Both the position numbers and the translations under genes were made by a program. Shown here in pieces: positions 174 to 52,449 of a DNA stretch of 64,000 nucleotides. This stretch comes from Cyanobacteria bacterium SIG28 (GTDB taxonomy: Bacteria > Cyanobacteriota > Vampirovibrionia > Gastranaerophilales > Gastranaerophilaceae): contig SUTU01000001.1 in the NCBI GenBank assembly GCA_015152525.1, forward strand, positions 1-64,000. The letters are read 5' to 3'. The notes under the pieces were generated by a model. The model had not been told where the DNA came from. It ran no database searches and saw nothing but the letters and a program-made list of their open reading frames with translations. The number at the start of each line of letters is the position of its first letter. The first letter of the stretch is position 1.

Positions 174-208
174 CGTCATTCTCAAGCGAAGGCTGGGAAT
201 CCAACTAA
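174..208. repeat. Half copy of the palindromic dispersed repeat
   Basis: Contains the left-arm signature of the element found complete at 254-375: GTCATTCTCAA, a short hairpin, then GGGAATCCAACTAA. The right arm is absent. The 1-499 region has no gene I can support; it holds this half copy, the G run and one full copy. Confidence 0.6.
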
Positions 209-253
209 TTCCCTTCTGTTATTCTTGCTCGAAAGTACGGAAATCCTGCCTTT

Positions 254-375
254 TGTCATTCTCAAACCGTTAGGTTTGGGAATCCAGCTAATGTTAAAAA
301 TAGCGGGTATAGAAAATGTAAACCAAATAATTATTCAATCAGCTGGATCCCCAAAGCTTCGCTTTGAGGATGACG
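254..375. repeat. MITE-like palindromic repeat, copy A
   Basis: About 120 bp. The left end reads TGTCATTCTCAAA and the right end GAGGATGACGG, so the ends are inverted repeats. Each arm folds into its own hairpin (CTCAAACC/GGTTTGGG on the left, CCCCAAAGC/GCTTTGAGG on the right), followed inward by CCAGCTAA and its complement-like CAGCTGG. The interior (AATGTTAAAAATAGC and on) is shared with the copy at 2679-2781. It has no coding capacity, so mobility would need an enzyme in trans. Confidence 0.7.
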
Positions 376-499
376 GTGAGCTTGTAAGCAACACCAACAA
401 ACCTGCTCCGCATTGTGTAAAAGGGCAAATGAGGTTTGTAGTCTTGACCGACCAACCTGCTCCGCTTGTTGAAAAAAGGGCAAAAGCGAGGTGTGCGGC

Positions 500-2527
500 A
501 TGATAACAATGAACACCAACCTCGCATCACTGATTGCGCAAAAAAGCCTAAAAAACTCTACCTCATCCTTAAACCAAGCGATTGAACGGATGACAACGGG
601 TTACAAAATCAACCACGCAAAAGACAATGCGGCAAACTACTCTATTTCAAACAACATGACCACCAAAATCGGGTCATACCAAGTTGCAGGCGAAAACACT
701 GCAATGGGTATGGATATGGTAACAACAGCGTGTGATACAATTTCTCTAATGCAAGACAAAGCTGAACGACTTCATTCTCTTGCAATACAAGCCAGAAACG
801 GTACCTATGGCGCAACTTCGCTTGCTGCCATAAACCAAGAAGTAAGCGCAATATTGTCAGAAATTGACCGAATTTACGGTACTGCAGAGTATAACGGTGT
901 ATCACTCTTTTCCGGAGAAAAAACCGATGCAGTTGCAAATGCAAGCGCAACACCGGAAGTCGCAACTTTCGCTCTTACACGAGGCGCAACGCCCGAAGGA
1001 AGCTTTATAGCTGACCCTATAACATATACTGACGAACAACTCGAAACAATGCTGGCAAACGGAGAACTTGTTGTCCTTGATAGCGATACGGCAACCCTTT
1101 CAGCGGATGTTGACTACCTGATTATGGACAAAGCCGGACTTCAACAATTAGCTAACCTTGTTAACAACAATATTGATACCTCTGGTATAACTTTCATCTT
1201 GGGTGCTGATATCGATTTGAGTGGTGAAAACTGGACACCGATTGGGAATTGTTCAGCAAACCCAAACTATCAATTTAAAGGTGTTTTTGACGGTAATGGT
1301 CATGTTGTCAAAAATTTGAATATTGAAAGTGAAGCTGACTCCCAAGGTTTGTTTGGGAGTGCTGCAAATGGTTCAGAGATAAAAAACGTCGGACTTGTTG
1401 GTGGAAGTGTTAAGGGTAAAAATTTTGTCGGAAATCTAGTAGGGAACGCTGACAATTCAACAATCAGCAACAGCTATGCGACAGGAACAGCTACTGGAAC
1501 AGGTGATAATGTCGGAAATCTAGTAGGGTTCACTAGCAGTTCAACAATCAGCAACAGCTACGCAACAGGGACAGTTAGTGGATGTAGCAGTGTCGGTGGG
1601 CTTCTTGGGAAAGGACACAACAGTTCAATCAACAATAGCTACTCGACTGGGAATGTTACAGGAACTAGTGGCAATGTCGGTGGGCTTGTTGGGATGGCTT
1701 ACGTTTCTAGTTCAATCAGCAACAGCTACGCAACAGGGACAGTTAGTGGAAGTAGCGGTGTCGGTGGGCTTGTTGGGGTTGGAGACAGTTCAATCAGCAA
1801 CAGCTACTCGACTGGGAATGTTACAGGAACTGGTGACAGTGTCGGTGGACTCACGGGGGATGCTGGCGGTTCAATCAGCAACAGCTATGCGACGGGAACA
1901 GCTACAGGAACAGCTAACCTTGTCGGTGGACTCATTGGTGCTGGTAGCGGTACTATAACCAATTGTGCATCTGTGCAATCAGATTCATATGCCACACAAA
2001 TGACAGAAGAAGAGATTTTATCAGCATCTAATCTCGAGTCGATGGGATTTACAGAAGCTGAAGGTTGGACTATTGTTAACGGTATGCCTACAATCGCTAC
2101 ACCATATGCTACAAATTCCAAACCTGAATCCGATACACTAGCTGATGGTGCAGGTGTCTTATTACAAATAGGTATCAACGCTGATAGTTCTTGCCAAATA
2201 GGGTTTGATACAAGATTTACTTACGATTTATCAGCAGTTGGGGCTGATATTAGATCTAATGAGGCTTTGACAGCAATAACCAATTTTGTTAATCTGCTTT
2301 CAGAGAAACAAACCGAACTCGGTGCTGTTCAAAACCGCTTGGAATCAGCGCTTGAGTCGATTGAGGTTAATATTAATAATTTGACCTCCTCTCGTTCGAC
2401 TTTGCGGGATGCTGATATTGCAGAGGTTTCGAGTACATATATCCAACAACAGATTTTGCAACAAGCAGCGGCAACTCTGCTTGCAACAGCCAACCAAACA
2501 CCTTCAATAGCTTTAGGGTTGATTTAG
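500..2527 (+). CDS. Flagellin with an inserted GLUG-repeat domain
   Basis: 675 aa. Residues 1-150 are a flagellin N-terminal D0/D1 region (NTNLASLIAQ, TTGYKINHAKDNAANYSI, QARNGTYGA). The last 90 residues are a flagellin C-terminal region (GAVQNRLESALESI, SSTYIQQQILQQAAATLL). The centre contains FKGVFDGNGHVVKNL followed, at about residues 318-490, by seven or so degenerate units of the type ISNSYATGTVSG-GGLVG, matching GLUG motifs (Pfam PF07581), which occur in large bacterial surface proteins and probably form a beta-solenoid. The two other flagellins here have 289 and 340 residues, so the extra length is the insert. I chose ATG 500 over GTG 491: GCGAGG lies 8 nt before it, and the N-terminus then aligns with the other flagellins. 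The DNA is visibly richer in G+C than its neighbours and stands alone between dispersed repeats, suggesting transfer or recent recombination. Filament incorporation is unproven. Confidence 0.9.
   Translation: MITMNTNLASLIAQKSLKNSTSSLNQAIERMTTGYKINHAKDNAANYSISNNMTTKIGSYQVAGENTAMGMDMVTTACDTISLMQDKAERLHSLAIQARNGTYGATSLAAINQEVSAILSEIDRIYGTAEYNGVSLFSGEKTDAVANASATPEVATFALTRGATPEGSFIADPITYTDEQLETMLANGELVVLDSDTATLSADVDYLIMDKAGLQQLANLVNNNIDTSGITFILGADIDLSGENWTPIGNCSANPNYQFKGVFDGNGHVVKNLNIESEADSQGLFGSAANGSEIKNVGLVGGSVKGKNFVGNLVGNADNSTISNSYATGTATGTGDNVGNLVGFTSSSTISNSYATGTVSGCSSVGGLLGKGHNSSINNSYSTGNVTGTSGNVGGLVGMAYVSSSISNSYATGTVSGSSGVGGLVGVGDSSISNSYSTGNVTGTGDSVGGLTGDAGGSISNSYATGTATGTANLVGGLIGAGSGTITNCASVQSDSYATQMTEEEILSASNLESMGFTEAEGWTIVNGMPTIATPYATNSKPESDTLADGAGVLLQIGINADSSCQIGFDTRFTYDLSAVGADIRSNEALTAITNFVNLLSEKQTELGAVQNRLESALESIEVNINNLTSSRSTLRDADIAEVSSTYIQQQILQQAAATLLATANQTPSIALGLI
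1455..1975 (+). repeat. Tandem DNA repeats encoding GLUG units
   Basis: Imperfect units of roughly 70-95 bp, each beginning near TCAATCAGCAACAGCTA and carrying GTCGGTGGGCTTGTTGGG-like stretches. Some unit pairs are almost identical in DNA as well as protein, so copy number could change by recombination while keeping frame. The repetition also keeps a second frame open (1578-1958), which I do not regard as a gene. Confidence 0.85.
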
Positions 2528-2678: not shown

Positions 2679-2781
2679 GAAGCAATCCAGCTAATGTTAA
2701 AAATAGCAGGAATAGAAAATATAAGCCAAATAATTATCTGACCAGCTGGATTGCTTTGAGCTTTGCTCCCGAAATGACAGG
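2679..2781. repeat. MITE-like palindromic repeat, copy B
   Basis: Shares with copy A the interior CCAGCTAATGTTAAAAATAGC, then ATAGAAAAT and CCAAATAATTAT, and the right arm CAGCTGGATTGCTTTG ending in GAAATGACAGG. Together with copy A it brackets the GLUG-flagellin gene in the same orientation. Confidence 0.65.
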
Positions 2782-2849
2782 AAATTATTTTATAACACTT
2801 ACCAAGTACAGCAATGACAAGATTTGTTTATTTGACGATATTTCAAGAG

Positions 2850-2881
2850 GCTGGATCTCCGACCTTCGGTCGAAGATGACG
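2850..2881. repeat. Half copy (right arm) of the palindromic repeat
   Basis: GCTGGATCTCC, a hairpin around GACC-TTC-GGTC, then GAAGATGACG: the right-arm layout of the element with a different hairpin sequence. Confidence 0.5.
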
Positions 2882-2968
2882 AACGAGCTTGTAGGCAACA
2901 CCAACCAGCCTTTACATTTACCCCCGAGGATGACGGCAAACCGGTAGCTTTCATCACTCAAAATATTA

Positions 2969-37562: not shown

Positions 37563-38585
37563 TTAAATCAAATTCAACGCAATACTTGGCAACTGGTTAG
37601 CTGTTGACAACAATGTTGCTGAAGCTTGTTGCAAGATTTGTTGTTGAATATAAGTAGAAGATTCAGATGCAATATCAGTATCTCTCAATGTAGATAATGA
37701 TGATGTTAAGTTTTGAGATTGTACATCTAATGCAGTGATAGCAGATTCAACCCTGTTTTGAGCTGCACCAATCTTAGTTGCTCTTTCTGAAATTTCATTA
37801 ATTGCTTCATCAATAAATTTCAACATATTATTTGCTTCACAGCCTTCTGTACTTTGTAATATGAAGGTTGCTTTTTCATCTTCTTCATTATATGTATCTA
37901 GAACTAAACCTGAACATGCAGCTGCAAGCATTTCCATGCCGGCTTTATCATTAAGGTTTGTACTTGCTGATACAGAAGCACCTTTAGCAGAAGATAATAT
38001 ACTGGATAAGTCAGTATAACTAGGAATATTAGCAAATAATCCGCTTACGCTGGCATCAGAGAAACATCTAACATGTAAATTTATTATTGAATTATCTTCT
38101 GCATATAAACCTACTTGAAGATTAATACCGTTAGCTGTCATACCTACATCCGGTCCTCCTTCTTGATATGACATTAATTTGATACCATTAAATTCACTGT
38201 TTGCAGAAATACGTGAAATTTCTTGTAATCTCGCATAAACTTCTGCTTGAATTGATTTTAATGATGCTGAACCATAAGTTCCGTTTGCAGCTTGTTCTGT
38301 CAAATCTCTTACACGTTGTAAGTGGCTTGTTAATAGTGAGTAAGTTTCTTCTGCTGTTGTTAACAAGTCCATACCGGTTGCTGCGTTATTTGCCGCAACA
38401 TCAAGTGAACTGATTTGAGTTTCCCATTTGTTAGCAATTGAATAACCTGCAGCGTTGTCTTTTGAATGGTTAATCTTGTAACCTGTAGACATTCTTTCTA
38501 GCGATGAATTCATGCTAGTAGTCGCATTGTTCAAACTTCTCTGCGCAATAAGAGATGATAAGTTTGTGTTGATTGTGAGTGCCAT
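37563..38585 (-). CDS. fliC: Flagellin
   Basis: 340 aa. Filament subunit exported by the flagellar apparatus. N-terminal D0/D1 MALTINTNLSSLIAQRSLNN, MSTGYKINHSKDNAAGYSI and LTEQAANGTYGS; C-terminal GAAQNRVESAITALD and STYIQQQILQQASATLLSTA. The central variable part (about 140-250) is short and has two cysteines. AGGAGAT precedes the ATG. The 455-bp stretch upstream to 39040 contains no gene; it is a long leader with several GGA-loop hairpins described separately. No other flagellar gene adjoins it. Confidence 0.97.
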   Translation of the reverse strand: MALTINTNLSSLIAQRSLNNATTSMNSSLERMSTGYKINHSKDNAAGYSIANKWETQISSLDVAANNAATGMDLLTTAEETYSLLTSHLQRVRDLTEQAANGTYGSASLKSIQAEVYARLQEISRISANSEFNGIKLMSYQEGGPDVGMTANGINLQVGLYAEDNSIINLHVRCFSDASVSGLFANIPSYTDLSSILSSAKGASVSASTNLNDKAGMEMLAAACSGLVLDTYNEEDEKATFILQSTEGCEANNMLKFIDEAINEISERATKIGAAQNRVESAITALDVQSQNLTSSLSTLRDTDIASESSTYIQQQILQQASATLLSTANQLPSIALNLI

Positions 38586-51579: not shown

Positions 51580-52449
51580 TTATAGTAAATTCAATGCAAT
51601 ACTTGGTGTTTGGTTTGCAGTTGATAATAAAGTTGCAGCAGCTTGTTGAAGAATTTGTGCTTGAATATAGTTTGAAGATTCTTCTGCAATGTCCGCATCT
51701 CTTAAAGTTGATAATGAAGAAGTAATATTTTCTGATTGTACATCAATAGACTCAATAGCTGATTCAATTCTGTTTTGAGCAGCACCAAGTGTAGTAATAC
51801 GACCTGAAATAGTATTAATTACATTATCAATAGTTAACAACATGTCAGATTGATTACCAACAATATCACCATCTTCATTAAGACCGGCACAAGCATTAGC
51901 TACAGCCTCTGCATCAGTCATATTAAATAAACTTGCAACGTCAGCAGCCGCAAATAAAGACTCGTCTAAAACGATTTGGCTATCTTCTGAGTTATATAAA
52001 CCAACTTGCAGAGCAATTTCACCGATAGAATTGTTCATCATTTTTAAACCGTTAAATTCACAGTTTTTAGAAATACGGTCAACTTCTTCTAATCTGGCTT
52101 TAATTTCTGATTGAATTGCCTTTAATGATTGAGAACCATAAGTTCCGTTAGCAGCTTGCTCTGTCAAATCTCGAACACGCTGAATGTGTGAAGTTACAAG
52201 CGCATATGTATCTTCAAGAGTTGCCAACATATCTGCACCGGTAGCAGCGTTGTCAGATGCAACATCTAATGATCCCAACTGTGTTTCCCAATTTCGCGCA
52301 ATTGAATAACCGGCAGCATTGTCTGCAGCGTGATTAATTTTGTAACCGGTTGTCATTCTTTCAATAGCTGTGTTTAACGAACTTGTTGCTTTTGCTAAGT
52401 TTGTTTGTGCTACCAGCGATGAAATGTTTGTGTTAATTGTAAGTGCCAT
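51580..52449 (-). CDS. fliC: Flagellin
   Basis: 289 aa, the shortest of the three here. N-terminal MALTINTNISSLVAQTNLAK, MTTGYKINHAADNAAGYSI and LTEQAANGTYGS; C-terminal GAAQNRIESAIESIDVQ and SNYIQAQILQQAAATLLSTA. The central domain is minimal. GAAAGGAG precedes the ATG. In the leader, GGAC-AA-GC-AAGGAA-GC-GTCC (52484-52503) places GGA in a hairpin loop, and TTG-GGATG-CAA (52470-52480) does so again, as in the other flagellin leader. It stands alone. Confidence 0.97.
   Translation of the reverse strand: MALTINTNISSLVAQTNLAKATSSLNTAIERMTTGYKINHAADNAAGYSIARNWETQLGSLDVASDNAATGADMLATLEDTYALVTSHIQRVRDLTEQAANGTYGSQSLKAIQSEIKARLEEVDRISKNCEFNGLKMMNNSIGEIALQVGLYNSEDSQIVLDESLFAAADVASLFNMTDAEAVANACAGLNEDGDIVGNQSDMLLTIDNVINTISGRITTLGAAQNRIESAIESIDVQSENITSSLSTLRDADIAEESSNYIQAQILQQAAATLLSTANQTPSIALNLL

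Follow-up and report, generated by a model that had tools for sequence, protein, structure and literature searches.

The outer domains of flagellins are known to be very diverse (PMC7018530), and a survey recorded 61 domain types within them and 17 flagellins labelled Peptidase_M26 (PMC5595980). Such outer domains have been reported to take part in adhesion elsewhere (PMC10256154), and mucus binding by FliD and by flagella is known from several bacteria of the gut and lung (PMC4009794). Among the Gastranaerophilales, flagella are known in some members from gene content (PMC4040986). Flagellins with exotic outer domains are already known, and the GLUG solenoid described here is a newly noticed outer domain of a real flagellin family; among open-licence papers, no report on GLUG flagellins or on giant FliDs was found.

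The window is the 64,000-nucleotide stretch of DNA that was analysed, positions 1-64,000 of contig C6 in a 1.89-Mb genome of 26 contigs that is 99.9% complete (G000 in the coordinates given below). At 500-2527 a single uninterrupted frame encodes 675 amino acids when read from the ATG at 500, or 672 when read from the ATG at 509. The former is likely the better-fitting start, because GAGGTG lies just ahead of it and the resulting MITMNTNL aligns with MLSINTNL of relatives; an identical GAGGTG precedes the start of a giant GLUG flagellin on contig C16. As originally predicted, this one frame retains both flagellin ends, with Flagellin_N and Flagellin_C each well above the Pfam cut-offs (Table 1). 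The FlgL model TIGR02550 also scores the protein, at 83.7 bits, which is below its cut-off of 127.2, and the genome's true FlgL is a separate gene that the tree places on a very long branch away from all flagellins. Judged by its sequence, the window protein is a flagellin and not FlgL.

Table 1. Coordinates of the features discussed. Plain positions refer to the window; residues are numbered from the ATG at 509.
Feature	Position	Strand	Evidence or remark
Block of dispersed intergenic repeats, upstream	180..480	.	Best matches (86-95%) flank the C16 giant GLUG flagellin on both sides
GAGGTG, likely ribosome binding site for ATG 500	489..494	+	Sequence reading
GLUG-solenoid flagellin gene	500..2527	+	Frame, Pfam, composition
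N-terminal filament-core helices (part of D0/D1), Flagellin_N	500..925	+	PF00669, residues 1-139, 1.3e-28, 100.3 bits (cut-off 26.6); model helices 3-30, 37-96, 102-125
Predicted beta-solenoid outer domain (M26_N/GLUG-type beta-helix), residues 187-489	1067..1975	+	AlphaFold2 pLDDT mostly 90-98; VIA
Seven GLUG units, 26-29 aa	1379-1462, 1463-1546, 1547-1627, 1628-1714, 1715-1792, 1793-1873, 1874-1954	+	PF07581, 7 stretches, 2.2e-17, 62.6 bits (cut-off 20.5)
168-bp higher-order tandem repeat, 1.8 copies	1545..1848	+	89% match; strongest tandem signal
Low-confidence return linker, solenoid to C-terminal core, residues 490-547	1976..2149	+	pLDDT <50
C-terminal filament-core helices (D1/D0), Flagellin_C	2270..2521	+	PF00700, residues 588-671, 3.2e-16, 59.9 bits (cut-off 23); model helices 584-663, 665-671
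Copies of the same repeat family, downstream	2684..2751; 2842-2911	.	88% over 68 bp; 76%
Ordinary flagellin, 340 aa, short middle	37563..38585	-	Comparison gene
Ordinary flagellin, 289 aa, short middle	51580..52449	-	Comparison gene
2084-aa flagellin	G000:C16:5609-11863		Two GLUG arrays, flanking modules like those of the giant FliD
Giant FliD-like gene, ~16.7 kb	G000:C17:72977-89657		Tandem IN-type modules; FliD_N and FliD_C at ends

The gene is richer in G+C than its surroundings, as had been noted (0.437 against 0.322 for the window). Its GC3 is raised as well, to 0.345 compared with 0.20-0.26 in the twelve other genes tested, and the excess therefore does not merely reflect the content of glycine and threonine. 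It stands outside the main flagellar cluster of its genome, and a scan for sigma-28-like promoters gave scores similar to those of shuffled controls for both flagellin classes. This solitary position and unusual composition would suit a flagellin-like secreted or minor protein located outside the filament, for which the conserved ends are merely an export signal, and non-structural secreted flagellin paralogues have indeed been reported, such as FlaC of C. jejuni (PMC5466977). However, all 37 relatives scanned have conserved the two filament-core ends in full, the C-terminal D0 helix included, as has the window protein, and a role solely outside the filament is improbable.

The fold of the exposed middle was predicted with AlphaFold2 from an alignment of 37 relatives. 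Between residues 170 and 430 the pLDDT mostly exceeds 90, and short strands continue in solenoid order until approximately residue 485. The D0 and D1 helices are present in the model, the ends of D0 at low to moderate confidence, and comparison with filament flagellins yielded a VIA Z of about 19 over residues 1-667. For residues 187-489, Foldseek and VIA returned 3n6z from B. ovatus (Z 29.5), 7uvk (28.9), 6xjb (27.5) and 7uvl (27.4); the alignment of the solenoid to the M26 beta-helices and 3n6z covers about 260 residues, and polysaccharide-active beta-helices are the next-ranked matches (Z 17-18). The model thus bears out the earlier proposal for the exposed middle, in that the outer domain can confidently be predicted to be a GLUG beta-solenoid, with the beta-helices of M26 IgA1 proteases as its nearest solved relatives. 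For the C16 giant flagellin, the middle with its two solenoids was modelled from a single sequence at a mean pLDDT of just 47.8.

Similarity to these proteases does not extend to their chemistry. The HEXXH zinc motif is absent from all 67 long-middle flagellins, window protein included, and Pfam found no match to the catalytic M26 family in the window protein or in the 37 scanned relatives; M26-type protease activity, as well as flagellinolysin activity, is therefore rejected. Nineteen of the 37 relatives do match PF05342 (Peptidase_M26_N), which is the non-catalytic part. A different connection to IgA can be envisaged, in which the solenoid acts in immune evasion or interacts with secretory IgA, as a relative of the substrate-gating beta-helix of M26 IgA1 protease that works as a lure or a shield. 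In addition to the ranking of the solved folds, the N-terminal domain of the pneumococcal enzyme, which contains the helix, touches the Fab of IgA1 (PMC7695701), and the variable middles described below are compatible with immune selection. Yet GLUG solenoids are common in proteins unlinked to IgA, for example in archaea, and the missing zinc motif and catalytic family weigh against this connection too, such that it must be considered quite improbable.

The genome encodes the main components of a flagellum. A PF00669 profile search identified seven flagellins and FlgL, the former comprising five ordinary flagellins (289-368 aa), the window gene and the 2084-aa flagellin on C16. Relative to the length of more than 1000 aa that defines giant flagellins, the window protein lies below, whereas its C16 paralogue lies above. 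FlgK, FlgL, FlgG, FlgH, FlgI, FliD, FliS and FlhA are all present, with contig C14 carrying hook-associated, ring and rod genes together with an ordinary FliD of 579 aa. Two full FlhA genes were observed, on C26 and C15. Furthermore, there are stand-alone ORFs like the C-terminal part of FlhA, of 285 aa (G000:C17:92567-93424, near the giant FliD) and 491 aa (G000:C5:21000-22475), which are possibly extra export docking partners. Contig C15 additionally holds, at 92726-93973 (G000:C15:92726-93973), an ORF in which a long tract of GNTGNTGNTGGRTT-type repeats precedes a J-domain-like end.

Both GLUG genes are flanked by short dispersed intergenic repeats, a mosaic family with palindromic parts around CAGCTGGAT; those beside the window gene have 112 matches genome-wide, the best of which lie next to the C16 GLUG flagellin. 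The gene had been described as sitting between mobile-looking repeats. Dispersed repeats are found on both sides of it, but they are short intergenic elements, and no transposase was seen among the ORFs adjoining the window gene.

Rather than the lone oddity that it had been taken for, the solenoid-bearing flagellin is one of a large family in the order. GLUG was found in 40 of the 65 genomes of the genus, where the readable GLUG frames of 500-820 aa are flagellins. A search of related genomes for flagellin plus PF07581 found the architecture to be widespread, with Flagellin_N, GLUG and Flagellin_C in one frame in 37 of 37 relatives scanned. In total, 67 distinct long-middle flagellins were collected from 43 genomes or records (68 rows, two of which are the window gene), belonging to several genera of the same family and to family f6, with a frameshifted giant one in f7; some genomes have ordinary flagellins only. 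The middles measure 310-1846 aa in these proteins and 43-127 aa in 30 ordinary flagellins, which were hand-picked, so that the comparison of lengths is not an unbiased census. Named relatives include MAGs from rumen, roe deer, yak and goat and a Candidatus Gastranaerophilales MAG, and their habitats are rumen, rectum and colon.

In the tree of the ends, the genus has its GLUG flagellins in a single group (SH-aLRT 91), and the flagellin of the Candidatus Gastranaerophilales MAG groups with the family of the window gene. On this basis the window genome probably belongs to that order of non-photosynthetic cyanobacteria. The GLUG flagellins of g14, g23 and f6 are placed among other flagellins of those groups. 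Repeated capture of GLUG middles by flagellins is thus likely from these sequences; in an AU test, a single clade of GLUG flagellin ends was not rejected (p 0.152), though the tree needs several changes.

This spread also bears on whether the gene might be an assembly chimera or a decaying gene, as could be suspected from its location at the start of contig C6, with dispersed repeats close by and a G run at 114-126. The frame is nevertheless uninterrupted, and the same architecture recurs in dozens of unrelated assemblies, including positions far from the ends of long contigs (for example at 373 kb of the 477-kb contig G064:C1), which contradicts an assembly join as the source of the two ends and leaves an artefact or decay scarcely credible.

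The manner in which the solenoids vary differs from what the original prediction had proposed. The DNA units are not near-identical: pairwise comparison of eight units of 78-87 bp gave identities of 43-91%, mostly 55-80%, and the longest exact repeat in the gene is 38 bp, with copies at 1545 and 1713. Slippage is doubtful because most units have diverged to this extent, and in-frame expansion or contraction of the repeats is a possible, minor route of variation. In relatives, by contrast, it is the solenoid as a whole that is replaced while the ends on either side are conserved.

In almost all pairs from one genome, the middles differ more than the ends do. In genome G168, three such genes lie at three loci (L163, L164 and L165), with near-identical ends and different solenoids: at the DNA level, they share 97-100% identity in the initial 540 bp and mostly 93-100% in the final 600, while the solenoids are locally just 30-65% identical. 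One copy adjoins flagellar rod genes, another a methylthiotransferase-like gene and the third an exonuclease-like gene, and the copies are therefore unlikely to be mere strain variants of one locus, though these are metagenome assemblies. Exchange of solenoids between conserved ends would leave this pattern, as would homogenisation of the ends around diverging middles. Similar but weaker cases are found in G034 and G011. In the window genome, the ends of the two GLUG flagellins are 47-54% identical, and recent swapping is thus seen in relatives and not there.

GLUG modules are not confined to the filament protein. FliD_N occurs in the genus in an ordinary FliD of ~585 aa and, in most genomes, in one or more giant frames as well. 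Complete giant frames, with FliD_N and FliD_C at their ends, reach 6148 aa (G044), 6137 aa (G038) and 5411 aa (G002), and others measure 5708 aa (G350, from another genus), 5285 aa (G034), 4155 aa (G003), 3511 aa (G047) and 2425 aa (G062); several giant FliDs of relatives carry GLUG arrays. The interpretation of giant GLUG ORFs as free adhesins devoid of flagellar ends was accordingly wrong for several of them, which are FliDs. FliD or flagellin ends were not found in the ORFs of 11,061 aa (G225:C5), 8,905 aa (G266:C1), 6,347 aa (G080:C1) and 4,702 aa (G076, edge-cut), and the first three, very large GLUG ORFs of related genera, are probably other surface proteins. The giant FliD-like gene of the window genome is interrupted by an assembly gap (an N run at L184:11267-11276; the gene comprises L184:6978 onward and L188:3-1655) and has no GLUG match; it is made of modules similar to the ones in the C16 giant flagellin (E 7e-17).

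Both the divergence of the solenoids and their presence in the cap bear on the main rival explanation, in which the solenoid is chiefly mechanical and has no specific ligand, forming a bulky coat that makes the filament stiffer or thicker and so suited to swimming through mucus or digesta. P. aeruginosa PAO1 requires outer-domain contacts for motility in viscous media (PMC10256154), giant flagellins give rise to thick filaments in marine bacteria (PMC6248924), and the gut habitats of the named relatives would fit such a purpose. A purely mechanical layer, however, predicts a conserved outer surface, whereas divergence is much faster in the solenoids than in the ends, even among genes of a single genome, and it gives no reason for FliD, at the tip, to bear GLUG modules. 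A purely mechanical role is thus unlikely.

We consider it rather probable that the window protein is a genuine flagellin whose displayed solenoids constitute an exchangeable surface module, one that binds something in the gut and varies the exposed surface, and these two effects may be what selection acts upon. The conserved ends would allow the chain to pass the flagellar export channel and to pack in the filament core, either alone or mixed with the five ordinary flagellins of the genome. By virtue of those ends, the solenoids would then project from the filament, so that the filament, or a segment of it, presents them outward, although their bulge could hinder packing. By analogy with flagella in general, the array would bind a target in the gut, which may be mucus, fibre or particles, or other cells. 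Variation across the lineage would arise mainly when entire solenoids are swapped and the conserved ends stay, changes in repeat copy number being a possible minor source.

A wider and more tentative view is that these flagella are modular binding appendages, in which both the flagellins of the filament and the giant FliD caps bear GLUG solenoids and whole solenoid cassettes pass between conserved flagellin ends, giving a cell a repertoire of filament surfaces resembling an adhesin or antigenic-variation system. The flagella of these non-photosynthetic gut cyanobacteria may thus combine propulsion with the role of variable organs for binding to surfaces. An obscure but widespread solenoid repeat is now tied to an organelle of known geometry, where display is testable, and the three G168 genes, a natural set of near-identical ends with different solenoids, offer a handle on the purpose of flagellin outer domains and on cassette exchange. 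The giant FliDs, in turn, pose the question of how a chain of the 600 kDa class can travel through the flagellar channel, and of what role so large a tip fulfils.

Among described systems, giant flagellins (PMC6248924) similarly retain D0/D1 ends around a large repeated insert, and the 2084-aa paralogue on C16 passes their 1000-aa mark; in those proteins, however, the insert is a DE/DX region with no named relatives of solved fold, in contrast to the GLUG beta-solenoid of the 675-aa window protein. Flagellinolysin and the 'Peptidase_M26' flagellins (PMC5595980) likewise carry a domain of another secreted family within the hypervariable region. Unlike flagellinolysin, the proteins described here lack HEXXH and a catalytic domain, and their M26 match is to the non-catalytic beta-helix. 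Since about half of the scanned relatives match PF05342, the 17 surveyed flagellins bearing the M26 label may be of the GLUG-solenoid kind, in which case some flagellins previously counted with an M26 peptidase domain would be non-enzymatic. The predicted solenoid fold is shared with 3n6z and with the N-terminal beta-helix of M26 IgA1 proteases (6xjb, 7uvk; Z 27-29.5), but here it is joined to flagellin ends, with neither the catalytic middle nor the C-terminal domain of those enzymes. Finally, as with the FliD cap adhesins of P. aeruginosa and C. difficile (PMC4009794), a candidate binding module is located in the tip protein of relatives, in the form of GLUG modules; yet whereas a reported FliD has about 474 aa (PMC5072837), the complete FliDs found here extend to 6148 aa and contain GLUG and other modules.
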